Shown here: positions 8,003-63,998 of the stretch, one piece after another
Layout of the letters: every line of letters starts with the position of its first letter
Numbering within the stretch: position 1 is the stretch's first letter
NCBI GenBank assembly: GCA_029204225.1
Contig: CM055112.1
Coordinates: 44,587,634-44,651,633 of the forward strand
Length of the DNA stretch: 64,000 nt
From: Diphasiastrum complanatum
Taxonomy: Eukaryota; Streptophyta; Lycopodiopsida; Lycopodiales; Lycopodiaceae
Direction of reading: 5' to 3'
Program-made: the position numbers and the translations under genes
The notes under the pieces: generated by a model
Told to the model about the DNA's origin: nothing
Database searches by the model: none
Seen by the model: the letters and a program-made list of their open reading frames with translations, nothing else

Positions 8003-8652
8003 TGTGAGAAGATTCAACTAGGTTTCATCACATTTTGCAATATCTCCATATTTGGCAATATTGAGGCCAAAACTTGTTTTAGACTTAGAGGTCGATTTTT
8101 CAAAGTTCATTAGTCTAAATTTCATTTGAATAAACACTTTTTTGAAAGTGTGGGAAAGATAGAATACGATGTTTGAGTAATTCAATTTGAATAAGTTGGG
8201 TACATGAATCTAGACCCAAATTGGTAGGGTTAGCATTTTGGTGGAAAGCAAGTGGCCAAATAGGTTTTTGGTCCTACTATAAAAGGATGTAACTCGTGGA
8301 GAGAGTCATCTTATCTCTCTCTATCTCATTTCATGCTTATCCATGGTTCTCTTGGGTTCTACTATCCATTGGTGCACTATCTTGGTGATTGCTTTGCAAT
8401 TCTATGTGTAGAATGATCTTATGTGCTATTTTTGGATCCACACGTGTGAAATACAGTAGCTTGCTGGTTTTGTATGAACAACAACAGTACATAATCATTT
8501 CATTCAAGTTTTATCAAGTTCTATAGTGTTTGCATCTCAAATTGAGTGTAGATGCTGATTTCTCTACATTGGTGAAATTGATTAGTGTATTTCTCTTTCT
8601 AACCAAAGATCATTCAAGTAGATTGGATCTTAAGGATCTGAAATCTTTCACA
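8003..8652 (+). repeat. 5' LTR of element D/E
   Basis: TGTGAGAAGATT...TCTTTCACA, 650 bp, the same length as the LTR at 26969-27618 and roughly 95% alike by eye. A TATAAAAG box lies near 8278. A perfect CACACGTGTG palindrome lies downstream of it at 8439-8448. Confidence 0.85.
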
Positions 8653-8666
8653 TGGTATCAGAGCTT
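8653..8666 (+). other. Primer-binding site of D/E
   Basis: TGGTATCAGAGCTT directly follows the LTR end. It is complementary to the 3' end of initiator Met tRNA. Confidence 0.85.
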
Positions 8667-9259
8667 TGTTTCAGGTTATGAAGGAGGGAAATCAGATCTA
8701 TCAATGATTTGGTGAAGATATCAAGTCTAGAGCATGCTAGAGAGGGATTCTACACCAAAATCGGATTTTTTGCTTGTTAGATGGATCTTTTGTAGATCAA
8801 ACACTAAATAGGTCAATATACTTGTTCAATTCCGTTTTTGAATTCACGTGCTGGATTTTGGCCGATTTTTGGATCATTGGTTCAGCCTAAGGTGGTGGCT
8901 TTATAGATTGCATATCAAATTTTCAGCATTTGCATGTAGATTTGGAATAGTCAAGTTTTTGTGATTTGTCAAAACCCTAATTTTGATTGGATCTCTAGAT
9001 AGTGAGAGTTCCTGGACTTCAATTGAGTGTATTTCAATCTTAGGAAGTGGCAAAAGTCATTAGATTGAGGATAGATCATAGGTTGATCAAGATTCCATGA
9101 TTCTATGTGTTGATTTGCTTGGATAAGTGCTAGAAGAGAATTTGTGAGATAGTTTCAAACTTTGGTGATTTCTTTTGAAAGCATTTGTTGTTGTTCAAAG
9201 AGGCGCTTGTGCATTGAAACAGTTGAAAGAGAAGATCAGGTCATTGCTACATGACTCAC

Positions 9260-9479
9260 TCAATTGGAGTCATTTGGAAGCCAATGATAGGCTTACCTCA
9301 AGTAACTATTCAATATGGAAGTGAGGATGGAGTCACTTCTTGAGATGAATGATGTTTTGGATATTGTTGTAGGTTTGGAGGAGAGACCTAGCAACACACA
9401 AGATCAATTGAGGTATGACAAGAAGGCCAAGAAGGCTCTACACATGATAAAGATGAATGTTACCAATGAACTTCTTTTT
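9260..9479 (+). pseudogene. D/E gag, N-terminal fragment
   Basis: The sequence encodes a copia gag start (NDRLTSSNYSIW, then MESLLEMNDVLDIVVG and HMIKMNVTNELLF). One nucleotide is missing after the IWK codon compared with the K gag (TGGAAGTGAGG against TGGAAAGTGAGG), so the frame shifts. A leader of about 600 bp without clear coding lies between the primer site and gag. The fragment ends at 9479. Its continuation is at 31029-30400 on the minus strand. Confidence 0.75.
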
Positions 9480-26402: not shown

Positions 26403-26968
26403 ATGGGAACCATTGGTGGATTCCTTTTTGGATCTAGTGAGCATTTGAATTCTACAAACTACTCAATATGGAAAGTGAGGATGCAGTCACTCTTAGTGCT
26501 CCAAGACCTCTTTGATATTGTCCTAGAAGAAGAGGATGAGCCTCTTGGAGGACAAGAATTGGTTAGATACAAGAAGAAGGGAAGACTAACACTTCATAGC
26601 ATCAAAATGAATGTTAGTGATGACCTCTTGAAGGAGGTAGCCTCTTGCACATCAGCCAAGGAAGCTTGGGATTCTTTAAAAGCTATATATGAATCCAAAA
26701 ACACTTCAAGAGTGCTTATGATAAGAAACAAATCTTACAAAACATGAGGAGAAGTGATGAAAGTGCACAAGTGTTGCTAAGGATCAAGTCTCTCAACAAA
26801 GAATTGGCCTCTATTGGTGAGAACATCCTTGATAATGAGCTTGTACAAGTGATTCCAAATGGCTTAGAAGATGAGTTCTCCAATTTGGTTCAATGTTTTG
26901 CCATCCAAAACACTTTGCCATCTATTGATAAGCTCCATAGTGTGCTTGTGGCTGAAGAGTGTAGGATG
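26403..26968 (+). pseudogene. Copia K gag, left half, cut by element D/E
   Basis: Gag starts at the ATG at 26403 (MGTIGGFLFGSSEHLNSTNY, then IWKVRMQSLLVLQDLFDIV). A frameshift at about 26745 separates it from the next part (RRSDESAQVLLRIKSL...NTLPSIDKLHSVLVAEECRM). It stops at GTAGGATG, where the D/E LTR begins. The uninterrupted version of the same gag is at 40837-42098, nearly identical in sequence. The right half is at 7247-8002 on the minus strand. Confidence 0.88.
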
Positions 26969-27618
26969 TGTGGAAGATTTCAGATCCTTAAGATCCAATC
27001 TACTTGAATGATCTTTGGTTAGAAAGAGAAATACACTATCAATTTCACCAATGTAGAAAAATCAGCATCTACACACAATTTGAGATGCAAACACTAATAG
27101 AACTCGATCAAACTTGAATGAAATGATTATGTACTGTTGTTGTCCATACAAAACCAGCAAGCTACTGTATTTCACACGTGTGGATCCAAAAATAGCAATT
27201 ATAGATCATTCTACACATAGAATTGCAAGCAATCACCAAGATAGTGCACCAATGGATAGTAGAACCCAAGAGAACCATGTATAAGCATGAAATGAGATAG
27301 AGAAGAGAGAAGATGATTCTCTCCATGAGTTACATCCTTCTATAGCAGGTCCAAACCCTATTTGGCCACTTGGCTTTCCCACCAAAATGCTAACCCTACC
27401 AATTTTGGGTCTAGATTCAATGTACCCAACTTATTCAGATTGAATCTACTCAAACTCGCATTATATCTTTCCCACACTTTCAAAAAGTGTTTATTCAAAT
27501 GAAATTTAGACTAATGAACTTTGAAAAATCAACCTCTAAGTCTAAAACAAGTTTTGGCCTCAATATGCCAAATATGGAAATATTGCAAAATGTGATGAAA
27601 CTAGTTGAATCTTTCACA
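26969..27618 (-). repeat. 3' LTR of element D/E
   Basis: 650 bp, starting TGTGAAAGATTC at 27618 (minus) and ending TCTTCCACA at 26969. The stop codon of the pol frame is the TGA of the LTR's own TGTGA. CACACGTGTG lies at 27173-27182. Confidence 0.9.
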
Positions 27619-30148
27619 CTCCCTCTTCAACTAGTTTTAGCATAGACTTTGATAATACTCCAAGTGAAGTCCTATGCTTTATGAACAGGTCTTTTCCCAA
27701 TGCTTTGGTGAAGATATCAGCTACACATTCCCTTGAAGACACATGTTGAAGCTCCACCTCCTTTGCAATGACTCGCTCCCTCACAAAATGATATTGTATC
27801 TCAATATGCTTGCTCCTAGCATAGTTTTTGACAATAGAACTTTGATCCATCATAAGAATGATCTTCTTACTAGGAATAGACCTTCTTTCAATGATCATGT
27901 AATGCTCAAAATAGAAACAACCATAATTGATATAGGGAATAGTGTCCACTTGGGATGCTTCACTATTTCTTACATCAATTTTACATGTAAAAATGTGACT
28001 AGAACATGAAGAATCAAATAGAATGTAAGTGAGATGATTCCACCATGCTTCCAACTCTGAACTCTCTGGAAAAATATAGCAAACAAACAATAAATGTGAG
28101 TCATCAACTTTTGCTTGCATGTCTCCTCCTCCTTTGTCCTTTGTTGCCTTGTATCCACCATGATACTCCATGAATGAGCCTCCATCTTCATCTTGCCACA
28201 AGAAACCATCAAACCTTGGAGATCCATGAGTAGGTGAGTACATAAATGATGCAAATCCAGCACCACATGACTCCATAAACCAAGTAGTTTTCACTAGTCC
28301 ATCTTCAAGATCTACTTGACACAAGAAATTGACCATGAATTCACCAAAAATTGACAATCTCCAAGTATTGGCACCAAGTAGCTCAACACTTGAGAACTTA
28401 GCCATGGATGAGTGACATAATGAACCTCCAATAGCTTCATTTCCATAAGCAAAATCAGCCAAGAATGCTAGTACAAATCCAATATCAAAACAATGCTCAC
28501 CAATGTAGCTAGTTTTGCCATATCTTGACAATTTGCACACATCCACATGAAATTGCTCAAACATGAGATAGAACAAGTAAAGTAAAGTTGAACAACTTGA
28601 GTCTTCAATATGCTGCAAAAATAGATCCATAACACCCTTGCCAATTACCTCTCCTTTGATGCTCTTGACTAGCTCCAAATTGCCAACTTCCCTTTTGACT
28701 AGTTGAAGCGCTTTGAGATCAACCTCTTGATCTTCGACTTGATCATCAAAGTCATTGAACAAAATTTGTTTTCTAGATCCATTACTTGATTTTACAGCAA
28801 GACAACATCCATCCACTTGCATAGCTCCATGTACACAAGATCTTCCAAAAGATGTTCCACTCTTCATAAGAGATCGATACTCAAGATCCATTGCTTCGAT
28901 CCACTCCTCTTCTTTCCTTGCTTGATCTACACTTGTAGGTTCATCCAAAGAGGTTAGGAAAGCAACATGATTTCCAGAAACTACTTGCTTACCCTTTTGA
29001 TCATATGTGAGCCTTGAAGGTACTTGTTTTTCTCTTGATGTTCTCCTTGGCTTTTGACTTGACGAAGGTCCATCATCACCACCATCCAAAGTAGGATCCT
29101 TCTCATCAACATCAAGAATGTTAGATCCATCTACTTTACCATCAATCATGCTTGAAGACACCTTTGGAATGTTTCCCTCATCAAAAATGACATCTCTACC
29201 AACAATCACTTTGTTAGTAGAAGGAATGTAAACCTTGTAGGCTTTACTCACCTCACTATATCCAACAAAAATACCTCTTCTTGAAGATGGATCCTCCTTG
29301 GTCCTATCATCAAGAGTAATGTTGACATAGCATGTGCATCCAAAGGTTCTTAGAAAGTTGGCACTCGGCCACCTATTGCACAAGAATTTGGCACACAACA
29401 AAGCTTGATCCCAAAATGGTTTGTCAAGATTAGCACTTAACCTCATAGCTTTAGCACTTTCACATAAAGTCCTATTCTTCCTTTCAGCCACTCCATTTTG
29501 TTGTGGAGTCCTTGATGTTGTATACTCCCTCTTGATCCCATGCTCATCACAAAAGGCCTTGAACTTGTTAGATATGTACTCACCACCATTGTCACCTCTC
29601 AAGCACTTGATCTTTGTGGAGAATTGATTCTCCCTTGCATTCTTGAACTTTACAAAGACATCATACACTTCATCCTTGCTCTTTAGTAGATAGATCCAAC
29701 AAAATCTACTAAAATCATCAATGAATGTTACATACATCTTAGCTCCACTATTGCTAATTGTAGTAAATCCATGAATATCTGAATGTACAAGTTGAAAAGG
29801 CTTTGTAGATCTAGAAATAGATATAGTATAAGGTAGCCTATGTGACTTAGACAAAGCACAAGACTCACAAACATGCTTGTCATTACTTAAGGAACTTGGA
29901 AGACCAATCACAACCTTCTTCCTTGCCATTACCTCCAATGACTTGAAGTTGAGGTGTCCCATCCTTTTGTGCCAAACCTCTTGAATAGAAAATTGCTCCC
30001 TTGCAACACATCCAACTTGGTTAGCAATAACACAAGCATCAAGTTTGAACAACTTCCCTTGCCTTTTACCTTTTCCAATCAAGACATCCTTCCTTTTGAT
30101 CAAACAAGCATCTCCATCAAACTCCACCTTGAGGCCCTTACTTAGCAT
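27614..30148 (-). CDS. D/E pol frame, 844 codons: integrase fused to unknown segment, RT absent
   Basis: Residues 1-260 form a copia integrase: finger H60, H65, C94, C97 and catalytic D124, D186, E222, with the D-to-E spacing of 36 that the family shows. A 20-residue piece after FLCNRWPS, present in element F, is deleted in frame. Residues 260-430 are the integrase C-terminal region and linker (RRGIFVGYSEVSKAYKVY; SRLTYDQKGKQVV). At about 431, where F continues into RT fingers (NNTWRLVELPKG), the frame enters about 340 unfamiliar residues rich in Cys, Ser, Gly and aromatics (LLYLFYLMFEQFHVDVCKL; VLAFLADFAYGNEAIGG). It rejoins copia at 776 (YARSKHIEIQYHFVRE) and ends KSMLKLVEEGV, as in F. No QLD or YVDD is present. 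No stop interrupts it. A second copy of the unknown part is at 52445-53223. Confidence 0.85.
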   Translation of the reverse strand: MLSKGLKVEFDGDACLIKRKDVLIGKGKRQGKLFKLDACVIANQVGCVAREQFSIQEVWHKRMGHLNFKSLEVMARKKVVIGLPSSLSNDKHVCESCALSKSHRLPYTISISRSTKPFQLVHSDIHGFTTISNSGAKMYVTFIDDFSRFCWIYLLKSKDEVYDVFVKFKNARENQFSTKIKCLRGDNGGEYISNKFKAFCDEHGIKREYTTSRTPQQNGVAERKNRTLCESAKAMRLSANLDKPFWDQALLCAKFLCNRWPSANFLRTFGCTCYVNITLDDRTKEDPSSRRGIFVGYSEVSKAYKVYIPSTNKVIVGRDVIFDEGNIPKVSSSMIDGKVDGSNILDVDEKDPTLDGGDDGPSSSQKPRRTSREKQVPSRLTYDQKGKQVVSGNHVAFLTSLDEPTSVDQARKEEEWIEAMDLEYRSLMKSGTSFGRSCVHGAMQVDGCCLAVKSSNGSRKQILFNDFDDQVEDQEVDLKALQLVKREVGNLELVKSIKGEVIGKGVMDLFLQHIEDSSCSTLLYLFYLMFEQFHVDVCKLSRYGKTSYIGEHCFDIGFVLAFLADFAYGNEAIGGSLCHSSMAKFSSVELLGANTWRLSIFGEFMVNFLCQVDLEDGLVKTTWFMESCGAGFASFMYSPTHGSPRFDGFLWQDEDGGSFMEYHGGYKATKDKGGGDMQAKVDDSHLLFVCYIFPESSELEAWWNHLTYILFDSSCSSHIFTCKIDVRNSEASQVDTIPYINYGCFYFEHYMIIERRSIPSKKIILMMDQSSIVKNYARSKHIEIQYHFVRERVIAKEVELQHVSSRECVADIFTKALGKDLFIKHRTSLGVLSKSMLKLVEEGV

Positions 30149-30399
30149 TCACACTAAGCAAATTCTTGGTAATAGATGGAATAAACAAGACATCCTCCAA
30201 ATGAACATTCCTATTTGTAGAGAGAGAAATAGGAATTGTGCCAATCCCTTTGATTGCACACTCACCATCATTGGTCGTGTAGATCACCCTCTTGTCATCT
30301 CCATATGCTCTTTGTGAAAGGTCATGTGTGAACTTGATCCACTATCAATCCACCAAGGATCTAGATCTCCATCATTAGCAAGCATACATGAAGACATCA
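30149..30399 (-). pseudogene. D/E protease region
   Basis: The minus strand encodes DPWWIDSGSSSHMTFHKEHM, the copia aspartic protease site (DSG). A shift follows within about 60 bp, and a second shift near 30150 separates it from the long pol frame. The protease is therefore not continuous with integrase in this copy. Confidence 0.8.
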
Positions 30400-31029
30400 C
30401 TAAGCATCATCATTTGCATCTTGCACATCCAAACCATCCTCATCAAGAGTAAGATTACCTTGCTTGTCTCCTTGATCTCTCTTCTTCTTGTAGCACTCAC
30501 TTGCAAAGTGTCCTTTGATGCCACAATAGAAGCATTTGAGCTTTGATCTATCCTTCTTTTTGCCACTTGAAGAAGCATCCACTTGATCTTGCCCTTTAGA
30601 CCACTTGCTTTTGGTTTTGCCCGGGAATTTGCCCTTTGTGAACATAGCATCCTCTTGAAGTGTCGATGTAGATCCGCCTCTTGATTGAAGCCTATATTCC
30701 TCATTGATCAAGATCTCTTGAAGATCCATCAAACTTGGCAAAGTCTTTTGAATAGCAATACTTTGAACAATGTTAGCATGAGCATCCAACAAGCCATTAA
30801 GAATCACTTGAATAAGTTCTCCTTTCTTAATGCTTTCATCTATGCAAGCTAACTCATCATTTATCAATGCTTTCATTCTCAAAACAAAAGTACTTGGACT
30901 TTCTTCATTCTTTTGCAAACAAGAAAAGATTTGCCTTCTTAGAGTCAACACTCTAGAAGTAGACTTGGATTCATAAAGCTTCTTCAATGAACTCCAAGCT
31001 TCCAAAGATGATGTGCACTTACCAACTTC
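30400..31029 (-). pseudogene. D/E gag, C-terminal two-thirds
   Basis: Starting EVGKCTSSLEAWSSLKKLY, it covers the copia gag core (RVLTLRRQIFSCLQ; NDELACIDESIKKGELIQVI; TLPSLMDLQEILINEEYRL). The zinc knuckle CFYCGIKGHFASEC follows, then an acidic tail (DEDGLDVQDANDDA). The N-terminal third is at 9260-9479; between them no gag codon is missing, judged against the K gag (NELLF then EVGKC). Confidence 0.85.
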
Positions 31030-32529
31030 CACAGAATACTGAATCTAATTTAGTCCAAACCTCAGAACAAAACTCGGAATATTGACGTTAATTTGAGGGG
31101 TATATCGAGGCTCAGATAGATTCTTGCAACTTTCAAAATTATTGACCATTGCCATGACATTTTCGAAAAAGAAAGATGAGTGGGTGATGGTATCAAGGGA
31201 CATACCTACCACCTTTGTCCTCTCCCTTGTTTGTTGATCCTTCCTCACCCTCTTTATCCTCCCCACTCTCCTTATCATCCTCACATTTGAATGCTCCTCT
31301 TGCTCTTGCTCTTTGCTTTCTCCTCCTCCTCTTTGTAGTTCATTTTTCTGGTCAAAATTTCAAAATTTCAGCAACTACAATCATTGATGCTGATTTTCTA
31401 GAAGAAAATGTGTGGATGTATCTCATATGCGCAAAATCTGCTATTATGCCACTTTTTATTGATGTACAAATGTAGCTATGTTAAAGAGTAGCTATAAAAT
31501 TCTATGGTAGGTGCAAATGTACCAAGTCGTCAAATGACAGTTATATCAGAAGAATTAGAGCTATTTTTAAGACTTTACTATTTTTAATAAGTTTATTAAA
31601 TAGCAATACTTATAAGTGACTCTGATGGACAAATATATCTATGGTTGTTAATGGCCATTGGTTACCATGTTGTAATTGATCAATGTACTTGTTAAAATAT
31701 GATTAATAAAAGATGCCCAGCATGTACCTTTAAGGCACTGACTTAAGTTTCAAGGAAAGGTCCAAAGGCTAAGGTTCCTTCCAACAACGACAATCAAAGT
31801 TCAGTTCAAGACGAAAACAACAAACCAGCAACAATATGACAATTAAATCAATGATCGTTGCAAATAATACCCTTTTGAAGATTAAGGATGTCCTTGAAAA
31901 ATTAGGACCATGACCTTATCATAAGGTCCAAAAAGATTCCACAAAATAAAATACGTTGGCAAGTTCAAAATTGTTCAAACAGTAATTAACCATGATCCAT
32001 CAAAGATTATCGAAGACAATTTGGAGTTCTAGATAAAATCAAGAAATTAGTAACATTGCTTCACAATTGAAAGAGTTCTGGATAAAAATCGATGAATCCT
32101 TATCGATTGAGGACACTGCAAAATATACCAGTCAAAATAAAGTTTTGCAGGTGAAAATGCTTATAAGACATTCAGGTGCCTTGGACGAAAAGAATTGTCG
32201 AGGTCGACACAATGCGGAAGATTGAAATACAACCTGATTGATCAATTTTGAAATTATCTGGAGAGGCCAAAACTATATTCAAGTACCTTTTTGACAAAAT
32301 GAAACAAAGAATTGATGTAAAAGGTGCTATAAGCTTTATTGAAAGTCGGTTTTGAAGAAATTGCCCTTCTCCTAGTCCTTGGAGACGGTTACACCATGGA
32401 GTACAAGATGATTCGAAGCCATCAACCTATCACTTGTCAATTGGACCTCAAAATTCTTATCAAAAGGAATAAATTTGAATTCCATGAAAGGGATTAATTG
32501 GAAAACAACAAGAGGATGGCGTTTGGCAG
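31030..32529. other. Unassigned AT-rich sequence
   Basis: It begins where D/E gag breaks off. Short frames on both strands (31045-31284 minus, 31215-31475 plus) are low-complexity and resemble nothing I recognise. No LTR ends, RNA gene or enzyme motif seen. Confidence 0.4.
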
Positions 32530-40695: not shown

Positions 40696-40836
40696 ACTAA
40701 TGTGAATAACCAGAATGAAAGAGAAATGGAAGACTCTAAAAAAATAAATTCAATATACGATAATGAGATTTGTACCAAGAATACAAATGAAAATGCTCTT
40801 CAAGAGTTTAGTCATTGAAATAATAACTCTGTTAAT

Positions 40837-42098
40837 CCAACAAACTACTCAATATGGAAAGTGAGGATGCAGTCACTCTTAGTGCTCCAAGACCTCTTTG
40901 ATATTGTCCTAGAAGAAGAGGATGAGCCTCTTGGAGGACAAGAATTGGTTAGATACAAGAAGAAGGGAAGACTAACACTTCATAGCATCAAAATGAATGT
41001 TAGTGATGACCTCTTGAAGGAGGTAGCCTCTTGCACATCAGCCAAGGAAGCTTGGGATTCTTTAAAAGCTATATATGAATCCAAAAACACTTCAAGAGTG
41101 CTTATGATAAGAAACAAATCTTACAAAACATGAGGAGAAGTGATGAAAGTGCACAAGTGTTGCTAAGGATCAAGTCTCTCAACAAAGAATTGGCCTCTAT
41201 TGGTGAGAACATCCTTGATAATGAGCTTGTAAAAGTGATTCCAAATGGCTTAGAAGATGAGTTCTCCAATTTGGTTCAATGTTTTGCCATCCAAAACACT
41301 TTGCCATCTACTGATAAGCTCCATAGTGTGCTTGTGGCTGAAGAGTGTAGGATTCTCCATGCAAAAACAAGGATGAGTTCCATCATTGCAAGAAGGAGAT
41401 GGGAGAGTAAATTTATCATTCAAGAGCAAGAAGAAGACCAATGGATCCAAGAAGGATCGAGCAAAGGAGGAGGGGGATCAAGAATCAAGTTCAAGGGCAA
41501 AGTACAAGTCAAATCTAAAATGCTTCTTTTGTGGAAAGAAGGGGAATTTTGCATCCGAATGCTACAAGAGGCAAAGAGCACAAGAGGAGGATGACAAACA
41601 AGGAAACCATGGACATGAAGAGGAGGAGGATGAAGGAGATCTACTCTTGATGGCATCCATTTACATCCTCACCAACAAGCAATGGCAATTCAAGAGAAAC
41701 TTGGTGGATTGATAGTGGGGCTAGCTCTCACACTTCTTGTGAAAAGGACTTTTTCTCAACCTTACGCTCATGCAATGATGCTAAAAAGTTTGTCTTTACT
41801 GCAAGTGATGAAGACTGTAGGATAGATGGTGTTGGTACCACATCTCTTTGTATCTAGAATCCTCAATAAGTATGGATTTAGAAAATGTTCTTTTTGTACC
41901 ATAAATCACCAAGAATATTCTAAGTGTTGGTAAGCTTTTGGAAAGTGGATTGGATGTCCACTTTAATCATAAATTTTGTTCCATTTTGAAGATTGATGTT
42001 TGCATTGCAAAAGGATTTAAACATGGAAGATTGTTTAAATTGGAAGCTGATATTGCTTTTGAGAATGTGAACTTGGCAAAGGAGGAGATCACTCAAGC
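40837..42098 (+). pseudogene. Copia K gag-protease, uninterrupted copy
   Basis: From TNYSIWKVRMQSLLVLQDLF onward it carries the same gag as 26403-26968 but continues past GTAGGATTCTCC, the site where D/E sits in the other copy. A frameshift at about 41131 is shared with that copy. The zinc knuckle CFFCGKKGNFASEC is near 41520. The protease WWIDSGASSH is reached in a shifted frame near 41705. The pre-integrase region (GLDVHFNHKFCSILK) runs to 42090. It is then cut by the antisense LTR of copia B2. The left edge cuts into the Ty3-like gag. Confidence 0.88.
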
Positions 42099-43507
42099 TG
42101 TGATAAAGCAATTTCATTGGATTGTTTTTGTAATAGTTTGAATAGTGTCATAAAAGATGAAATATCATTGTATTGGAAATCTTTGGGTCCACATGCTTTG
42201 AGCATGATCATTCCAATGTAAAGACCAAAGATTATCCTACTTCAATGATAGGAGTAATGTTAGTGTTTTTGCTCTTCACGTAGAGATTGTAAAAACTACA
42301 TGTATTCCACCAAAGAAGTTTGAAGATACATCAAGTTTCTACCCACAAAGCATTGCTAGCTTATGAAACCTTACTTGTAGAAATACATGTAAAAGCCAAT
42401 AGGCCTTACCTGTAGAAACTACCCACAGGCAGAAACCGCAAACAACCGCAACCACAATGCATGCGGCTTTGGCAAAGGCACCACAGGCAACCGTAGAGTC
42501 TTGCAAATGGTCCATTATGAAGCCGAAGTAAACAACCGCACCTTCAAGAAAAATTGAAGGTCAATGCATAAGGCCAGAAGCGAAGACCAACAAAGCAAAG
42601 GAAAACCGCCATGGAAGAACCGCAAGGCCTCACTTACGGTTCATTATATCTTATAACATGTAACATCATTGTGAAGTATACTTTATCTTCGTGTTGGAAG
42701 TGATTATGCTATCATGGAGACATGTTGTTGAAATCCAGCAAGTTCACATGTGTGGGAAAACCAATTCTTGGTGTGAATGATCTTATTAAGCTTTGTGTTT
42801 AGCACATAAACTAATTCTAGATTGAATATCATGATCTAGTTCAAGAATTTATGACTAAAACACAATCTAGCATACTAGTAATCAAAGAATGGTTACTTTC
42901 ATAATCAATGAGAAAAGTACAAAGAAATTAATGCATTAGCATAGCCTCCTCCTCGAGTTAAAGAGAGAGTGCAAAATTCAAGCATACAAGGCAATAGATC
43001 CAAATTGACAAGAAATGGCTTCAATGCTTGGTTCATCATCAAGGATTGTGAGAGAACTCACATACATTTATGGTGGATGGAATAGCTCATGGTAGAGCTA
43101 GCATCTATCTACTTTCTTCCACATCTAGAAGTGAAAACTCACAAACTAGTGACATTTGTCACTTTACATGCATACCTATCTATCCACTTTTACCAGGTGG
43201 CAATTTCTAAACTAGAATTGTCCAAAGCACTATGCATGTGTCCTTTACACTTTGTGCATGCTTTGCATGCCACTTAGGAACACTTACAATCTTTGCATGT
43301 GATATGACTCAAGTTTCTACAAGCTCATATTTGGCATTCTTAAATCTATATGCATGTTGTATTTGACCAATTAGACTTCATATAGCCTATGTAGCTCGAG
43401 TTTCTTCTAGGCCAAATTTGGCATTTCCAATATGAAACATTACATACATGTAGAAAAAACCTTATCAAAACCAAAAGTCAAGATAGATGAGTTTTCATTT
43501 TTCAACA
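42099..43507 (-). repeat. 3' LTR of copia B2
   Basis: It starts TGTTGAAAAATG at 43507 (minus) after the purine tract TTAGGAG and ends at 42099. It is the reverse complement of 5745-7246 with the 56-bp tandem duplication absent. Confidence 0.8.
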
Positions 43508-46040
43508 CTCCTAAAAATTAATCTATGTTGACTTGAATGTGGATCTTGGAATTAATCCAAAATTGGCTCTATGGTTGATGAAGGAATTTTTGCTCAAAGT
43601 TTTGGTGAGCAAAACTGCAATACATGATGACGTGTCGATGTGCTCCAAATAGATTTCTCCTCGAATGAGCTTTTCTCTCACAAAGTGATGTGTAACTTCG
43701 ATGTGTTTGCTCCTTGCATGAAATATTGGGTTGTTGGCAAGGGCTTGTGTTGAAATATTGTCACACATGATCAATGGTATATCATCTTTCTTGATAGTCT
43801 TTAGCTCCAAAAGCAACCTCTTGATCCAAAGCACTTCTTTTGTTGTAGTAGTAAGCGCTTTATATTCAGCTTCACAAGATGAGAGAGATATGGTATCTGG
43901 CTTTAGAAAGCCAAGATATTAAATTCCCTCCAAGGCATATTACATATGCACTTGTAGATTTCCGATCCACTTTATCACTAGCAAAATCTGAGTCAAAATA
44001 TCCAATCATAGAAACGTCTTCACTTTTGTACAACAATCCATAATCATAGGTTGAAGATATGTACCTAAGTACTCTTTTTGCCATTTTCCAATGACGAATT
44101 GTAGAATTTTGCATAGCTTGGCTTATTTTATGAACACTAAAACTTAAATCAGGCCTAGTTATGGTAAGTCAAACTAAGGAGCCTATAAGACTCCTAAAAA
44201 GAGTGATTTCCACGAAGGATCTTTCATCGCCTTTATTAGGATCTTTTACAATTTGCTCCATTGGAGTATCAATACTCTTACAATCTAGCATATTAAATTT
44301 CTTCAACATTGAAAGAGCATACTTTGATTGACAAGTAAAAGCTTTATCATTATGAAAGGCAATCTCTAGGCCTAAAATGTAATGAATTTTCCCAAGATCT
44401 CGCATCTTGAATTCTCCTCCAAGTGCAACTTTAGTTTCTTCAACTAAATTGATACAACTTCCACTTAGGATAATATCATCAACATAAATTAGAAGAATGA
44501 CAATATCACTAGCAAAAACTTGATATACATGGAAGGATCATAGTCACTAAGAAAGAATCCTAGTGAGATAAGAAAATTGTTAAGTCGAGAATACCATGAT
44601 CTTGGTGCTTGCTTTAGTCCATAAAGACTTTTGAAAAGCAAGCAAACTCTGGACTCATCTTTGATGAATCCTTTAGTTTGTTCCATATAGATTTCTCCTT
44701 CTAGATATCCATTTACAAAAGCATTTGAGGCATCTAATTGGAACAGCTTTCGTTTGAAAAAACAAGCAATGGATATGATAACTCTTATTGATACCATCTT
44801 TGCAACAGTTGCAAAGGTCTCTTCATAATCAAGTCCATGAATTTGGGCAAAGCCCTTTGCACAAAGTCTTGCCTTATATTTGTTGATTATCTTGATTATA
44901 TTTTCCTCAAAAAACCCATTTGCAACCAATAGTATGCTTGTTGGATGGAAGATCCACAAGCTCCCATGTCTTGTTGGTGATCAATGCATCATATTCCTGC
45001 TTCATGGCTAAAAACCATTCTTTTGAGTTGAGTGCCTCTTGGACGTCCTTTGGCTCTTCATCTGAGATAAAATACGCATAAGTAGTGGAATCAAGTTCCA
45101 TTTGTTTGCCTTTTCACCGTATGAGAGCCTCTTAGGCTCGAATCTTTCTCTTAGTGATCTTCTAGGCGAGAAGATTCGAGGTGACTCCTCCTCAATTCTC
45201 AGCCCCATCCCTCCACGATAATCTTCAAGAGAGATAATAGGAGAACTTTTTTGAGATTCTTTGATCTCGGCCTCATCAAAGATGTATTTCTGGTTCTCAT
45301 GGAATATAACGTCTCTACTCTCAATTGTGATTGAGGTAGAGGGATCATAAATTCTATATGCCTTCTTGTTGGATGAATACCCAACCATGATCCCTTTGCT
45401 TGAATTTGGATCATCTTTTCTCCTTGTTTCCAAGGGAATATGTACAAAGCAAGTACATTAAAAAACTCTAAGGTGATCAACGTTAGGCTTCTTCTTGAAT
45501 AAGACTTCATATGGTGATCTTCCTGCAAGAGTATAATGAGGTAGTCTATTGCACAAATTTGCACACTTTATTGCTTCTTCCCAAAATTCAATAGGCATAG
45601 AAGCTTCAATTCGAATTGCTTTAGCACATTCACATAAGGATCTATTTTTTCTTTCGGCAACCCCATTTTGAGATGAGATAAGCACAAGAAAATTCTCTCT
45701 TGATTCCTTCAAGCTCAAAAATAATCATGGAATTTATTGGAGATGTATTCACCTTCTCCATCACATCTCAAAGCTTTAACTTTAAAAGAAAATTGTTTCT
45801 CAACGTAAGCTTTGAAAAATAGGAAGTAATCAAACACCATAGCTTTAGAAGAAAGAAGGTATAACCAAGTATACAATGAAGGTAACAAAACAGGTAGCAC
45901 CACCAATACTTTTTGAGGAAGAAAAGTGAACATCCGAGTGTATTTGTTCCAATGGATGAGTAGTAGCCTTATCATTCTTGATCATAGAAAGCATAGATTT
46001 GAAATTGGGATGTCCCAATCTCCTATGCCATAACTCCTCC
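43508..46040 (-). pseudogene. Copia B2 pol, from integrase finger to RNase H, broken
   Basis: On the minus strand the order is the integrase finger (MEELWHRRLGHPNFKSM), core start (HSDVHFSSSK), SQNGVAERKNRSLCECAKAIR, C-terminal region (GIMVGYSSNKKAYRIY), RT fingers ([21 protein letters not shown]), palm (FQLDASNAFVNGYLEGEIY), LYGLKQAPRSWYSRLN, then RNase H (YFDSDFASDKVDRKST; MCDNISTQALANNP). Frameshifts near 45715, 45460, 45005, 44910, 44490 and 43880 separate the pieces. The YVDD stretch is shifted relative to the palm. Gag and protease are missing, because the pol joins directly to a fragment of its own LTR at 46041. Confidence 0.9.
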
Positions 46041-52082: not shown

Positions 52083-52444
52083 AAAATGGGCCCTTTAAGA
52101 AGTTTGACTATAGAGAAACATTAACAAGAGAGAGAAAACTTCCGGCAACATCTATGCTCATTTTTTATGATTTCAAAACTGCTCATCGCCCAATTTCTAT
52201 AAGCAAATGTGATAATATTGTCTCTCCCTACCCGAGAGCAGCCTGTTTTTCTCATACTGAGCACTTAGAATTATTTCTGACATTGAATTCTCATAGTAAG
52301 AAGTTAGATTTTTCAGTCAGATGTATGCCATTGTGCTCTTGCCTTAGATTTTACAAGTATATTGTTCTCTGATCAATCTTGTGCAATCACAACAACTCAG
52401 TAAGATTCTGTAAGGTGTGTGGTGAAGTTCACACATGATAAAAA
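52083..52444. other. Unassigned spacer
   Basis: No coding or LTR features recognised between the P remnant and element Q. Confidence 0.4.
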
Positions 52445-53223
52445 CTTCACAAAGAGGAAGATCAAGAGGTTGGTCTCAAAGGGCTTCAACAACACAAAAG
52501 GAAATGTGGCAATTTGGAACTAGTCAAGAGCATCAAAGGAAGGTTATTTGGCAAAGATGTTATGGATCTATTTTTGCAGCTTATTGAAAACTCAAGTAAG
52601 GTCAAAGGAGCAGCAAGGGAGTGTTGTTCAAGTTTACTTTACTTGTTCTATCTCATGTTTGAGCTATTTCATATGAATGTGTGCAAATTGTCAAGATATG
52701 GACAAACTAGGTACATTGCAAATTGTTGGAGTTGTACTAGCATTCTTGGCTGGTTTTGCTGATGGCAATGAAGCTAATGGAGGTTCATTATGTCATTCAT
52801 TCATGTCCAAGTCATCAAGTGTTGATGATATCTTGTGGCAAGATGGAGATGGAGACTCATTCATGGAGTTTTATGGTGGAGACATATCAAGAAAGGACAA
52901 AGTTGTACGAGCCAAGCAAGCAAATGGTCATCACTCACATTTATTGTTTGGTTGCTGTAATTTTCTAGAGAGTTCAAAACTTGAAACATGGAGGAATCAT
53001 TTCATTCACATTCTATTTGGTTCTTCATGTTCTAGTTATATCTTGATGTGTAAAATTGATGTAAGAGATAGTGAAGCATCCAATTTGGACACTATTCTCT
53101 ATATCAATTATGAAAGATATTTTAGAACCTTAGAAAGGAGATCTATACTTAGGATGGAGACTATTCTAAACTTGGATCAAAATAGTATGGTTAAAAGTAT
53201 GCCAAAATTAGTTGAAGAGGGAG
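52445..53223 (+). pseudogene. Element Q: second copy of the D/E unknown segment
   Basis: It starts at EDQEVGLKGLQ and follows residues about 470-775 of the D/E frame: NLELVKSIKG, SSLLYLFYLMFELFHMNVCK, VVLAFLAGFADGNEANGGSL, SCSSYILMCKIDVRDSEAS. The frame shifts once, near 52745. It lacks the D/E part about 583-646 and the RNase H tail, and passes from MVK directly to SMPKLVEEGV-stop, the same C-terminus as D/E and F. An LTR of the same type follows at once. The integrase and everything upstream are missing. Confidence 0.85.
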
Positions 53224-53350
53224 TGTGAGAGATTTCAACAAGCCTACTCATATTTTGGTAAATTGTCAATATGAGGCCAAAACTCATTTTAGAGTTAGAG
53301 ATAAAATTTTTGAAGTTATATTAGTTTAAAATACATTCAATAAACATGTT
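53224..53350 (+). repeat. 3' LTR start of element Q
   Basis: TGTGAGAGATTTCAAC overlaps the stop codon exactly as in D/E. About 120 bp follow the D/E LTR (AATATGAGGCCAAAACTC) before the sequence changes into a tandem repeat. Confidence 0.75.
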
Positions 53351-58397: not shown

Positions 58398-61199
58398 ATG
58401 GCTTCAGACATCTCCCTCTTTCATCCTCATAGTCTCAAACGACCTGCTTCAACTGTATCTCCCCCTCCTGACTCCCCTCCTCGTTCACGTCAAGCTGTGT
58501 TGGGTTTCTTGCTTGCCACAACCCCCTCTGTTCCTCCTTCGCCCACCTCTTTCCATGGCATTGTTGCCCCCTCGCTTGGTTGTGAGCCTCCTTTGACCCT
58601 TGTTGCATTGCCTTCTCAACCCCCTGAACGGGTTCCTTGCCATGCTTGTGGTCGTTTCTTCTCTCCTAGGGGAAGTCTTGCCCGTCACCAACATTTTTGT
58701 CCTACGCTGCTTTAGTCGTCTCAAGATCGCCCTCCTCTTTCTGCACCCCATTCGCCCTCTGCTTCAGTTTGGTCTTGGATTTCTTCCCTTGATGTCCTCC
58801 GAGCTTTTCACTTGGGCTTCCCTCGTCCAAGGCTCTACTTTCATATACCCCTCGCTCTTTGTCGAGAAACTCAAGTTGCTATGCGCCTTCCTCTTGATCG
58901 CTTGGCTATTGACCCCTTCGACATTGCGGCTTGGCATCTATTTATTCTTTTTTCCCTTTGGTGTCTAGTGCTTCCTCCGAGGGGTGGGAATGCTGGTCAT
59001 ACAGAAACTCATGCTCGCCTTCGTCGCTTTCTATCGGGAGACTGGGAAACGCTTCATGATGGACACTTTGCACGGTGTCAGGCACTTGCTACTCGCAACT
59101 CGCAGGACTCTCATCCTCAAGGCGCCCCACCTCTCCACCGTCGCCTTCATCGCACCCTACATCTTGGGCAAGTTGGTGAGTATTCTCATGCAACTCGAGC
59201 TTTAGCTCCTCTCACACCCGCTCCCTCTTCTTCTGATACTGTTGCTGCCCTCCAAGCTCTGCATCCTGCTTCTGAAGGCATTCTTCCCTTGTTTGTGGAG
59301 GACTTTTTGTCTGATGTTGACTTGGTTCTTGATCGTGATTCTTTCTATCGTGCCTTCCATCGTAGTCCTCGTCTTGTTGTTGGTGGTCCCTCCGGTTTGG
59401 TCTATGAACACCTTCGTGATTGCTTTCCACTTGAGGACTCTGCTAGTGGCCTTGTTCAACTCTTTTGGGTCTGCTCTTTTATCGCCTCTGGTCACATTCC
59501 TTCTTCTGTCGCTCGTCTTTTGTCTGCGTCTCGTTTGATCGCCACGTCTAAAGCCTCGGATGGCATCCGTCCCATCGCTATTGGCAAAGTCCTCCTCCGT
59601 CTTGTTAGTCATTCTATCTGTTTTCAGTTTCAACAGATTTTCGTCTCTTTTCTCTCCCCTCATCAGTTTGGCGTCTCTATTCCTAGCGGCTGTGAAGCTG
59701 TCATTCATGGTTTGCATACCACCCTTGATCTCCATCCTAACTGGGTTGTTCTCCAAGTGGATGTTTCCAATGCTTTTAACTCTGTTTCTAGAGCTGCGAT
59801 CTTTCAAGAGCTACGCGCGGCTGGTGGTGAGTTGGCTCAGCTTATCCCATTTGTGCGGTTGTTCTATGCTACTGAGACTCCTCTCTTTTATAGTCACCAT
59901 GTGCACTCTGGGGATCTTTCCACTATTCAGTCTGCAGCAGGTACTCGTCAAGGTGATCCTTTCGCTGGTCCTCTTTTTGCTCTGGCTCATTTTCGTGCAC
60001 TTCGAGCTTCTGTAGAGGCCTTTCCCTCCTGCTTATTTCCTTCGGTTGTTGATGACACTCATATTGTTGGTCATGCTCCTACGGTGCTCCTCGCATTTCA
60101 TCATTTCTATGAGCAGCTGGCTTCTCTTGGTTTGTCTATTCAACCCCGCAAATGTTTAGTATGGTCTCCAACAGGTCTTCCCCTAGACTTAATTCCTCCT
60201 CAAGGTTTCCTTGCTCCTTCGGATGGCATTCGAGTTCTGGGTATTCCTAGTGGGTCTGCTTTCTTCAACTCTGTTTTTCTTGGTGAGGCTCTCCAGGAGG
60301 ATGTTGCTCATTCAGATCTGCTTCCCCAGTTGGGCGACACTCAGGTCGCGTTTGGCATCTTGATGTCTTGCTTTATCCAATGTCCTTCTTATCTGTTGCG
60401 GACTTTTCCTCCTACTCCGGACTTTTTGCATCTCCTCTCTTCCTTTGATAGCTCTCTTATGGATGTTTTTGGCCACCTTTTGGGTCCTGATTCTTTGGAT
60501 GGTGTGGAGACCCTTTTAGCTCGGAACCAGGCTCGGTTACCTATTTCTTGTGGAGGTGTGGGTTTTCTCTCTACGGTTTCTTCTGCACCTACAGCTTTTC
60601 TTGGGAGTTGGGCTCTTGTCGCCCATGCTTTATCTTCTCAGTTCCTTTCTGGCTTTCACCCTCTCTTGGCAGATTGCATTGCTCATGTGGATAGTAGTTC
60701 TCTACCTTTCCAACACCTCCTCATCGTTGTGCGAGAGCTCCTCCCCCTCTCGGCCCAAGCTTGTCTTCCTCCTTTTGAGCAACTCCTCACTTTCAGCTCA
60801 GATCACCTGCAAGAGACCCTCTTGGAGCGCGTGCACAAGCATACCCTTTCCAGCATGCTCTCTAAGGCTCCTTCGGCGTTGCATCGAGCTCGACTTCTTT
60901 CTTGTGCGGGTCCTAGTGCCCAAGCTTGGCTGTCAGCTCGGCCTGTTATCCCTTCCTTCCGGTTGTCTTTGGCCATCTTCACTATTGCTCTTCGTCTTCG
61001 CTTGGGGCTTTCTCATCTTTCGGTCTTGGGTCTCTCCAGGTGTGTTTGTGGTCGCCCTATTGCTGCTCTTGCTATCCACCTCCTTCGTTGTCCTTTTGGG
61101 AGTGAGTTCACAGCTACGCATGATGTTGTCAAAGATGCAGCGGCCACTATAGCTAGAGATGGAGGTTTCCATCCTCAGAGAGCAGTCTCATGTCCTTCC
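58398..61199 (+). pseudogene. Non-LTR retrotransposon, one long frame with a single TAG, 3' end cut off
   Basis: One frame runs from ATG 58398 to the copia LTR at 61200, broken only by TAG at 58713-58715, where CAG would fit. The N-terminus has a zinc finger (CHACGRFFSPRGSLARHQHFC type). The RT domain follows in standard order: GPSGLVYEHLRD, DGIRPIAIGKVLLRLVS, HQFGVSIPSGCEAVIHG, VLQVDVSNAFNSVSR with the first catalytic Asp, AGTRQGDPFAGPLFALA, and VVDDTHIVG in place of the usual [FY]ADD, then LGLSIQPRKCLVWSP. Near the C-terminus CVCGRPIAALAIHLLRCP followed by THD resembles the Cys-His motif before the restriction-like endonuclease of R2-type elements. The endonuclease itself would lie past the cut. 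It is clearly richer in C and T on the coding strand than the copia surroundings. Confidence 0.85.
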
Positions 61200-61852
61200 T
61201 GTGAAAAACTCAGATCCAAAAGATGCTAAAGTTTCATAAAGATCTTGGCCATGGAAGTTATGCACATCTAGATTGAAAAAATGATAGAAATTGTGATGTT
61301 AAGCATACTAAACATCAACTAAACATCAAAATCTGATCATAAGCTTCCACAAACAGAAACTTGCTGTCCCTGTCCGTACTTCAGAGCCTACAACCTGCAT
61401 TTTACACGTGTGAAGCCATAGCAACAAAGAAATCACAATTCTAGTGGCTAGAATGCAAGATATGAACAAAAAAGTGAGAGAGAAGAAGATGGATCTTCAA
61501 AGAGCATAACATTCATTCAATAGAATGAAAATGAGATGTGTACATACTCGTGGAGATGGCTATTTATAGCAGCCATAGTGCCTCTTGGCCACTTGTCTTA
61601 TGATAGGCTAAAATTGGGGTCCAATAGGATTCACCCATCTACCTAGAAATTTGGTCAAATAGGAATGCACCAAATTATGAGCCAATAGAAGAGCTCCACA
61701 CTCGACCTCCTCTAATTAATGTGACCTCAAAAGTAGTGTACACATACTTTGGGCCTCTACATACATGTATGAACCTATCTCTAACTTTTATTTGGCCATA
61801 GGCCTACAAAATCTCAAGTTAGGAAAATACTACTAGTTGACAATTTTTCACA
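61200..61852 (-). repeat. 3' LTR of copia F
   Basis: 653 bp; TGTGAAAAATTG at 61852 (minus) to GAGTTTTTCACA at 61200. TATAAATAG lies near 61562-61570 (minus) and TACACGTGTG at 61403-61412. It is inserted in the non-LTR frame. The first five flanking bases are CTTCC (61195-61199), so the same bases are expected past the far LTR outside the window. Confidence 0.92.
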
Positions 61853-63998
61853 CTCCCTCTTCAACTAGTTTTAGCATAGATTTAGAAAGTACACCAAGAC
61901 TTGTTCTATGCTTGAAAAATAAGTCCTTTCCCAATGCTTTGGTAAAGATATCAGCCACACATTCCTTTGATGGGACATGTTCAAGCTTGATCTCTTTTGC
62001 CAACACTTGTTCTCTCACAAAATGGTAAGCCACCTCGATATGTTTGCTCCTTGCATGGAAAACCGGATTGCTTGCTAGACTTTGGGCTGAAAGGTTGTCA
62101 CAAAAGATGATTGGACTCTCTGAAAAATCCAGCAAATGAAGCTCCATAATCATCCTCTTGATCCACACCATCTCCTTTGTGCATGATGTCAAAGCTTTGT
62201 ACTCGGCCTCACTAGAAGAAAGTGATATAGTTGCTTGTTTCTTCGACATCCATGAGATAGCTCCATCACCTATGAAAATAGCATGTGCATTTATGGATTT
62301 TCTATCCATAAGGTCTCCTGCAAAATCTGAATCTGAAAAACCAAATAAGTTAGGTGATGATCCTCTATAAACAATGCCAAAATCTTTTGTTCCCGAGATG
62401 TATCTCAAGATCCTCTTTCCTAGTTTCCAATGTTCTATGCTAGGATCTTGCATGAATTGGCTTAATCTACCAACACAATAAGATAAATCAGGTCTTGTGA
62501 TGGTTAGATATATAAGAGAACCTATTAGCTTCCTATAGAGAGTAATGTCCTCGAAGGATCTTTCATTACCTCTTATAGTTAGCTTTACATGTGATTCCAT
62601 AGGTGTATCAATAGGATTTGCATCTACCATATGAAATCTATTGAGAATAGAAATAGCATACTTCTCTTGTGAAATAAAAGTGATTTGAGAAGTTCTAATT
62701 ACTTCTATTCCTAAGATATAGCTCAAAAGACCAAGATCATGCACTTCAAATTCCTTTTTTAGTGCTTTCTTGATATCTTCTATATCTTCCTTGTTCCCTC
62801 CACTTAAAATAATGTCATCCACATAAATTAGAAGGATTGTAACATCATTAGCACTAATTCTAAAGTAAAGTGAATGATCATACTCACTCATAGTGAAGTT
62901 TTGAGAAAGTAGAAAAGAGTTAAGCCTAGCATACCAACTCCTTGGTGCTTGCTTAAGACCATACAAACTTTTTTGTAGAAAACACACATGATTAGGCTTG
63001 CTATGAGAAACATAGCTCTCGGGTTGCTCCATGTAGACTTCCTCTTCAAGATCACCATTCAAGAAAGCATTAGAAATGTCTAATTGCCAAAGATCCCATC
63101 CATAAAGAGTTGCAAGGGAAATGATTACTCTTATGCTCACCATCTTTGCCACGGGTGCAAAGGTTTCCTCATAGTCAATGCCATGCTCTTGAGCATAACC
63201 TTTAGCCACCAACCTTGCCTTCAACTTGTTGATAGATCCATCTTGATTTGTCTTTACCTTGAAGATCCATTTGCATCCAATTGCACTTTTGCCCTTTGGA
63301 AGCTCCACCAATCTCCATGTGTTGTTCTTCATAAGTGCTTCAAACTCAAGATCCATTGCTTGGATCCATTCCTCTTTTTGCCTTGCTTCATCTACACATG
63401 AAGGTACATCAAAAGAAGTTAGGAAAGCATAGTTGGATCCATCCACCACTTGCTTACCTTTGCCATCATAAGTGAGCCTTGAGGGTTTCACTTTATGCCT
63501 TGGAGTTCTCCTTGGAATTTGACTTGAAGAGGCTTCTTCAACATCCACATCCAATGTGTCATCAACTCCATTGTCATCAAGCACATTAGTTGCAACAACA
63601 CCATCATCACTTGAAACAACTTTTGGAATGTTACTTTCATCAAAAATGACATCCCTACTTGTGAACACTTTCTTGATTGAAGGAACATAAATCCTATATG
63701 CTTTGCTTACTTCACTATAACCAACAAAAATGCCCTTTCTTGAAGATGGATCCTCCTTAGTTCTATCATCAAGAGTAATGTTGAAGTAGCAAATGCATCC
63801 AAAAGTTCTTAGAAACTTGACATTAGGCTTCATACCAAACAAAGCTTCAAAAGGGGTTTTTCCTTCCAATACAACACTTGGCCATCTATTGCAAAGGAAA
63901 TTTGCACACAACAAAGCATCACTCCAAAAAGGTTTAGGAAGATTAGCATTCAATCTCATTGCCTTTGCACTCTCACACAAGGTTCTATTCTTCCTCTC
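61848..63998 (-). CDS. Copia F pol (integrase end, RT, RNase H), intact within the window
   Basis: The frame is open from the right edge of the window (ERKNRTLCESAKAM) to VEEGV-stop, whose TGA lies in the LTR, so at least 717 codons carry no lesion. Counted from the Met at 63980: integrase C-terminal region 1-170; RT fingers 216-290 (CKWIFKVKTNQDGSI; ARLVAKGYAQEHGIDYEETF); catalytic QLD at 299-301; YVDD at 386-389; connection 480-530; RNase H acidic residues D550, E591 and D628; tail FHARSKHIEVAYHFVRE. All usual motifs are present, including YGLKQAPRSWYARL. The integrase end, linker and C-terminus closely resemble D/E, so F is a good model of the autonomous relative of D/E. The gene continues beyond 64000. 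Confidence 0.93.
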   Translation of the reverse strand, partial: ERKNRTLCESAKAMRLNANLPKPFWSDALLCANFLCNRWPSVVLEGKTPFEALFGMKPNVKFLRTFGCICYFNITLDDRTKEDPSSRKGIFVGYSEVSKAYRIYVPSIKKVFTSRDVIFDESNIPKVVSSDDGVVATNVLDDNGVDDTLDVDVEEASSSQIPRRTPRHKVKPSRLTYDGKGKQVVDGSNYAFLTSFDVPSCVDEARQKEEWIQAMDLEFEALMKNNTWRLVELPKGKSAIGCKWIFKVKTNQDGSINKLKARLVAKGYAQEHGIDYEETFAPVAKMVSIRVIISLATLYGWDLWQLDISNAFLNGDLEEEVYMEQPESYVSHSKPNHVCFLQKSLYGLKQAPRSWYARLNSFLLSQNFTMSEYDHSLYFRISANDVTILLIYVDDIILSGGNKEDIEDIKKALKKEFEVHDLGLLSYILGIEVIRTSQITFISQEKYAISILNRFHMVDANPIDTPMESHVKLTIRGNERSFEDITLYRKLIGSLIYLTITRPDLSYCVGRLSQFMQDPSIEHWKLGKRILRYISGTKDFGIVYRGSSPNLFGFSDSDFAGDLMDRKSINAHAIFIGDGAISWMSKKQATISLSSSEAEYKALTSCTKEMVWIKRMIMELHLLDFSESPIIFCDNLSAQSLASNPVFHARSKHIEVAYHFVREQVLAKEIKLEHVPSKECVADIFTKALGKDLFFKHRTSLGVLSKSMLKLVEEGV

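Follow-up and report, generated by a model that had tools for sequence, protein, structure and literature searches.

What stands at the position of the reverse transcriptase (RT) in a long frame of a copia element, and why is it open? The question was raised by a stretch of 64,000 nucleotides from the clubmoss Diphasiastrum complanatum (GCA_029204225.1, contig CM055112.1, positions 44,587,634 to 44,651,633; the whole stretch is called the window). On its reverse strand, at 27614-30148, it holds a frame of 844 codons in which the open-reading-frame check found zero stops, as a first-pass annotation made from the letters alone had reported. Pfam recognised gag_pre-integrs, rve and an SH3-like domain in the translated frame, RT being absent. 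In the self-comparison of the window, the homology of this copy to a relative with intact RT (family F) ended at 28861 and restarted at 27822. The 1.04 kb between these edges (~27823-28860) are designated X; between the same edges F holds ~420 residues, which comprise RT and most of RNase H. The reading that we prefer, and to which we give an even chance, is that X is a translated, non-catalytic segment that is kept open in an element mobilised in trans.

Identity and abundance of segment X

X had been described as unrecognised, and alone it matched no Pfam family at E<=1. The six-frame comparison of X with F gave nothing convincing (best E 0.046) and hhalign of X against RT gave a probability of 0.1; on these two comparisons a disguised RT was rejected. 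In a protein search with the 844-residue frame, region 434-772 was matched by none of 1,327 candidates. Structure prediction had been suggested as a route to the identity of X. AlphaFold2, run on a shallow alignment of 30 rows, returned no confident fold (mean pLDDT 29.4, pTM 0.25, all 346 residues below 50), so that no identity was gained. A scan of 26900-31100 with Rfam gave no structured-RNA match, which implies that any RNA signal in X would be new.

X is abundant in the genome. When up to one mismatch was tolerated, a 27-base tag taken from X matched 2,530 times on the forward and 2,456 times on the reverse strand (4,986 matches), while the reversed-pattern control gave 0 matches. The DNA search of the genome with X found at least 40 copies. 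In the protein search with X 118 places were scored, the best of 17,969 candidates; besides the window copy these were 92-96% identical. They include apparent duplicates and the score ranking favours intact copies, and within these bounds 79 of the 118 were stop-free in X, 16 of the 79 lying within frames of 1,121-1,271 codons (manual count). The copies found across the genome refute a single-copy chance origin. Chance in a wider sense, in which X would be a single rearranged copy, an ordinary copia region, an antisense long terminal repeat (LTR) or a frameshifted RT, might appeal to the age and the rearrangement of the window copy. It is contradicted by the number of tags, by the comparisons with F and RT and by the absence of any match of X to an LTR in the window comparison, and it is hardly credible. 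The first three of these forms had been raised by the first-pass annotation and none of them agrees with the results.

The same searches bear on the proposal that X was captured from a host gene and has evolved neutrally ever since. Capture of host genes has a precedent among plant elements in maize Bs1, and X is without a match to transposable elements beyond its own kind. However, the scored genome matches (the best 118 of 17,969 candidates and, with a related protein, the best 150 of 15,463) look like element copies; neither among them nor in three protein searches, which gave X itself only, was a host-gene parent found. A parent may lie outside the places scored, but capture, which the first-pass annotation had also considered, is judged very unlikely.

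Families that carry X and their candidate helper

The window copy is an old, decayed member of a non-autonomous Ty1/copia family, here named A. The layout of A is gag, protease (PR), integrase (IN) and X, followed by RNase H or by its tail only. In the complete copies L069 and L070 the LTRs measure ~652 bp and are 98.3% and 98.5% identical. In 17 of 29 A loci, a sample that includes near-identical duplicates, X is directly followed by a piece of RNase H, in most cases of 385-386 nt, in another frame; in the other 12 this piece is missing, as in the window copy. The first-pass annotation had stated that RT and most of RNase H are replaced by X: RT is indeed missing, but RNase H is not what X replaces. 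The loss of RNase H in the window type apparently results from a deletion between two ATGCTAGGAGCA repeats. Where RNase H is kept (L069-L070), the X frame overlaps the RNase H frame, which is the -1 frame, by 13 nt; a slippery site for a possible frameshift between the two was not obvious by eye.

A second X in the window led to family B. Its complete copies L071 and L072 have LTRs that are 99.85% and 99.4% identical and single frames of 1,088 and 1,089 codons that reach the LTR. The B frame consists of gag, a zinc knuckle, the protease region and then X; IN, RT and RNase H were not found in it by Pfam. B holds protease and ~640 further codons, and 9 of 30 B loci were open throughout the ~761 codons covered (manual count). 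Upstream of X in the L071 frame (L071:1647-4910), ~350 codons between protease and X form a region Y, which is open in all long-frame B copies examined. Y shows a hydrophobic stretch, IILMLNVLIIFFMA, as well as faint traces of RT. Since Y matched RT weakly (single-subject E 1e-4; hhalign E 0.0012, probability 19%), it is probably a decayed RT. The catalytic motif YVDD of RT has been lost from this remnant upstream of X.

Both families bear the traits of Ty1/copia elements. LTR pairs, the primer site TGGTATCAGAGC and a polypurine tract were present in L069-L072, with target duplications TTTAG (L069), TTATG (L070) and GAACT (L071) and ends consistent with one in L072 (printed ends read by eye). 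B has a copia-type gag and Pol_BBD, A has gag_pre-integrs and rve, and the order of the domains is that of F (IN before RT) save for the missing RT. The RT of an autonomous copia element was not detected: Pfam found no RVT_2 in the window frame, in A (L069) or in B (L071).

A profile search of proteins with X recovered a D. complanatum protein that contains it, and two X profiles also matched proteins P0008, P0009, P0010 and P0012 on short contigs. In P0009 the linker between integrase and RT passes directly into X, P0008 has X and then the RNase H tail like the window copy, and in P0010 and P0012 X stops at the LTR as it does in B. In a genome search with P0010, 150 places were scored, the best of 15,463 candidates. 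Forty-three of these, at 59-67% identity, constitute set C, of which 7 were stop-free in X (manual count). By its divergence C is an older X-bearing set. Across the whole group X measures roughly 260-350 codons and occupies the place of RT, in B and (as far as visible) its relatives that of RNase H too, different large pieces being missing in B and C, and the blocks KIDVRNSE and DTI-YINY recur in nearly every row of the X alignment. X itself, common to at least three element sets (A, B and C), is judged to be old.

Without RT of their own, A and B must obtain it from elsewhere, presumably from relatives as the first-pass annotation had foreseen, and a family with intact RT frames does exist. 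The RT of F was identical at the protein level in 98 of 98 scored genome places, 84 of which lay in frames of 1,330 codons (manual count). F has probably been active very recently, and its identical RT copies together with the LTR identities of the two B copies indicate recent activity of both F and B. F and A/B have in common the polypurine tract, AAAACTAGTTGAAGAGGGAG followed by TGTGA, and LTR ends GGATCTGA...TTTCACA or nearly so, in a comparison that covers the 3' end of F, its 5' end being beyond the window edge; the rest of the F LTR did not match the LTRs of A and B at E<=1e-3. It is likely that F is the helper that supplies RT to A and B. Beside the F LTR, at 58716-61229 on the forward strand, the window holds a LINE-like reverse transcriptase frame of 837 codons, of a type that is perhaps not known from seed plants.

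Exchange of X and selection on it

Between A and B the LTRs are 80.4% and leader, gag and PR 77.9% identical, whereas the values for X are 88.4% and 83.5%. Likewise dS was 0.165 for X, 0.52 for gag and 1.02 for PR. Divergence in X is thus below that in gag, PR and the LTRs, and X has been exchanged between the lineages. In 14 B loci the alignment to A starts exactly at the start of X in A, and in some B loci the sequence ahead of X is similar to the linker between integrase and RT in F (alignment read by eye). The transfer took place by recombination, probably through template switching at the time of reverse transcription, and its direction was probably from a B-like element to A.

The substitutions within X are distributed differently from those in the other coding regions. 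Between A and B dN/dS was 0.98 for X (bootstrap 0.61-1.74), 0.27 for gag and 0.25 for PR. Differences by codon position were 36/45/36 in X, as opposed to 31/18/51 in gag and 17/19/42 in PR; between A and F they were 42/41/85 in the integrase C-terminus and 27/16/69 in RNase H. These ratios and codon positions imply that the constraint on the residues of X between A and B is weak or absent; over longer times it is perhaps real. For X of A against three copies of C (three of the 7 stop-free copies out of 43, used in all pair comparisons with C) dN/dS was 0.77-0.86.

The compared copies were nevertheless stop-free in X across 12-25% divergence, where 4-8 stops would be expected. The following P values come from simulations and are too small, since the copies were chosen for openness (A and B by long frames, C as stop-free). 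Between A and B, with 117 substitutions in 267 codons, 5.3 stops were expected and 0 observed (P=0.004), and for a shorter stretch 4.1 and 0 (P=0.014). Between A and C, with 172 differences, 8.1 were expected and 0 observed, and none of 5,000 simulations was stop-free; between B and C the figures were 6.2 and 0 (P=0.003). Most of the divergence in this test is older than the individual insertions. The gaps within X between A (L029) and B (L056) were 9, 174 and 12 nt long. The first-pass annotation had named dN/dS near 1 together with scattered stops as evidence against a role of the segment, and a neutral filler as one of its possible natures. The first half of that pattern was found between A and B; the copies compared, which were picked for openness, showed no stops. 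Of the natures proposed, neutral filler best describes the residues of X, yet its frame seems to be maintained free of stops.

How X could be kept open may be pictured as follows. A and B would each contribute RNA, Gag and protease, to which A would add integrase. Autonomous copia elements, of which F is the candidate, would provide RT in trans. X would form the C-terminus of the translated polyprotein, without a catalytic role, and selection would mainly keep the reading frame free of stops as far as the 3' LTR. The reason that we propose is that a premature stop would leave a long 3' untranslated region (UTR) on the genomic RNA and thereby lower its stability, the output of Gag or packaging. 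This rationale leans on what the consulted parts of two reports describe, namely that plant nonsense-mediated decay targets long 3' UTRs (PMC6277124) and that the GAG output of the copia element EVADE of Arabidopsis depends on RNA handling and translation (PMC8892269). EVADE differs, according to the same part of the report, in being autonomous, in making GAG from a spliced short RNA and in having no X. Mobilisation by F, translation of X and RNA decay as the selective agent are the parts of this picture that we infer. More tentatively, X might be a transmissible stop-free segment, of which the openness would be selected and the content hardly, so that translation of the genomic RNA would be what counts and recombination would spread the segment.

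Several observations weigh against selection for openness as far as the LTR. The choice of open copies for the stop test and the restriction of the F comparison to one end have been mentioned. In the A copies with RNase H a stop closes the X frame more than 500 nt short of the LTR, which is at odds with a plain requirement for translation as far as the LTR. Within families (25 A and 26 B loci, after dropping 5 and 4 near-identical ones) the substitutions and stops in X look neutral, as they do in PR and IN, although these ratios are uninformative because most of the change postdates insertion. Among frame indels, which were few, those common to at least three copies were multiples of three in 2 of 2 cases and those common to two copies in 1 of 5 (23 loci of A and 21 of B remained once 7 and 9 had been removed; all were chosen by full-length X matches). 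Finally, dN/dS of X between B and C was 0.52-0.61 (bootstrap 0.35-0.87 for one pair), by which some constraint on the amino acids is possible.

These last values lead to a different explanation, in which X is a fast-evolving accessory protein that would act in trans, in Gag assembly, helper recruitment or evasion of silencing, with selection on part of its residues. It would account for the B-C ratios, one bootstrap range of which stays below 1, for the frame that is open through 24-26% divergence and also in P0008, P0009, P0010 and P0012, for the two blocks present in nearly all rows and for the transfer of X between element lineages; LTR elements with added working domains have also been published, as in the part consulted of a report on AlkB in orchid Gypsy elements (PMC9289625). 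On the other hand, the A-B ratio of 0.98 with its wide bootstrap range, the flat codon positions, the low pLDDT and pTM (obtained with the shallow alignment), the absence of a Pfam match and the different large pieces that B and C lack are not what such a protein would lead one to expect. We consider it a possible but rather doubtful explanation. Lastly, X could work as RNA or DNA, as a packaging or priming signal or by its length as a spacer, the open frame being incidental. The missing codon-position bias is in line with this, and the DNA of KIDVRNSE...DTILYINY is nearly identical in A and B. However, the absence of stops and the A-B gaps in multiples of three would be left unexplained, which makes such a role unlikely.

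Elements that lack parts of their machinery are known. TR-GAG elements are short non-autonomous LTR elements defined by a GAG frame alone; they share this frame and non-autonomy with A and B but differ in that B has protease, A integrase and both X, so that neither family consists of a GAG frame only. The closest published case would seem to be wheat RLG_Quinta, whose description, in the part consulted, gives one frame of GAG and DUF1 without RT or integrase, an autonomous partner (RLG_Cereba) with conserved LTR termini and inter-lineage recombination ascribed to template switching (PMC11302176). The likeness extends to a non-autonomous LTR element without RT, an unassigned segment after GAG, LTR termini in common with the partner and recombination. 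In contrast, RLG_Quinta as there described is a Gypsy element of a grass without integrase, whereas the present elements are copia, belong to a clubmoss and in family A keep integrase; moreover, X sits at the former RT position and is common to several element families. The X elements are of the same kind as RLG_Quinta, in another superfamily and a distant plant. According to the consulted part of another report, whole wheat families (RLG_Sabrina and RLG_WHAM) lack RT and integrase and are presumably moved by RLG_Wilma, partners being paired by primer site, LTR termini, age and promoter; these are Gypsy, and in that part no segment replacing RT is mentioned, unlike in the X elements (PMC9744471). 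The orchid Gypsy elements, which carry an m6A demethylase domain of the AlkB type, likewise have an extra domain fixed in an LTR lineage. There, as far as the portion consulted goes, a known enzyme of host origin is encoded by an added frame, and the element is large and has no replacement of RT, whereas X has no recognisable relative (PMC9289625). Among the titles found on Diphasiastrum and retrotransposons, and more widely, none describes X elements.

A large group of clubmoss copia elements is hereby described. Helpers are often less numerous than the non-autonomous LTR elements that depend on them, and it matters why some of them keep long frames of no assigned identity, such as DUF1 of RLG_Quinta. 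With thousands of X copies, three divergence sets and an intact helper family in one genome, a clean test is possible in which two ideas can be separated: a new accessory protein and selection for the open frame as such.

The window copy and its surroundings

The features of the window are collected in Table 1. Its LTRs, polypurine tract and target duplication, announced by the first-pass annotation, were all recovered: the LTRs, expected to be ~5% apart, are 94.4% identical, and the duplication is CATCC (5 bp; printed ends read by eye). The copy had inserted into another copia element, of which a paralog at 40834-45429 shows the empty site, so its former movement is confirmed as well. The frameshifts ascribed to its gag and protease were also found. 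Its integrase had been called complete. The seven residues named in support are at their places (H60, H65, C94, C97, D124, D186 and E222), but the integrase is incomplete, because a stretch after the catalytic core that is present in all of the 29 other loci is missing: they are longer there by 54 nt (27 loci) or 43 nt (2). Inside X the same 29 loci have 3 nt (28) or 4 nt (1), plus 27 nt, more than the window copy. Losses of 54, 3 and 27 nt leave its frame intact. Since this old copy was noticed for its length, its openness is partly luck; the family is what counts.

Table 1. Coordinates of the elements and their parts within the window
Feature	Position	Strand	Basis or content
844-codon frame, family-A copy	27614..30148	-	protease-region end, pre-integrase, integrase, X, RNase H tail
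Stop codon of the 844-codon frame	first bases of 3' LTR	-	frame reading
Segment X, occupying the RT position	27815..28852, residues 433-778	-	points where homology to F breaks off and resumes
Integrase core (rve, residues 115-215)	29504..29806	-	Pfam
18-codon stretch of relatives missing just past integrase core	~29360	-	comparison with other loci
RNase H tail (ARSKHIEI...LVEEGV), in frame with X after ~386 nt loss	27618..27822	-	window self-comparison, 29-locus comparison
3' LTR of window copy	26969..27618	-	94.4% identity to 8003-8652; 96.8% to LTR of L069
5' LTR of window copy, distant and in opposite orientation	8003..8652	+	window self-comparison
Leader, primer site and gag start of window copy	8653..9475	+	L070 158-1634 matches 8003-9475 at 94.9%
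Remaining gag and protease, frameshifted	30149..31030	-	inversion breakpoint 31030/31031
Second X, deletion derivative of family B, X abutting 3' LTR	52440..53346	+	window comparison; led to family B
Relative F (candidate helper), RT-RNase H intact, truncated at window edge	61848..63998	-	window comparison
Putative F 3' LTR, sole F LTR inside the window	61200..61852	-	same polypurine tract and initial LTR bases as A/B; terminal bases similar

The window copy is split into 8003-9475 on the forward and 31030-26969 on the reverse strand, with 3 bases lost at the breakpoint in gag. The 21.5-kb stretch 9476-31030 has the opposite orientation to the family-A element lying across its ends, and because of this inversion the 5' LTR lies far off and in the opposite orientation. 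The split would reflect either a true inversion or an assembly error. Near relatives of the B derivative at 52440-53346 (L040-L044) lie together on its own contig (C21:44.6-45.8 Mb, a span of ~1.2 Mb), and some of them have the same flanking sequence, which may point to either local or segmental duplication.

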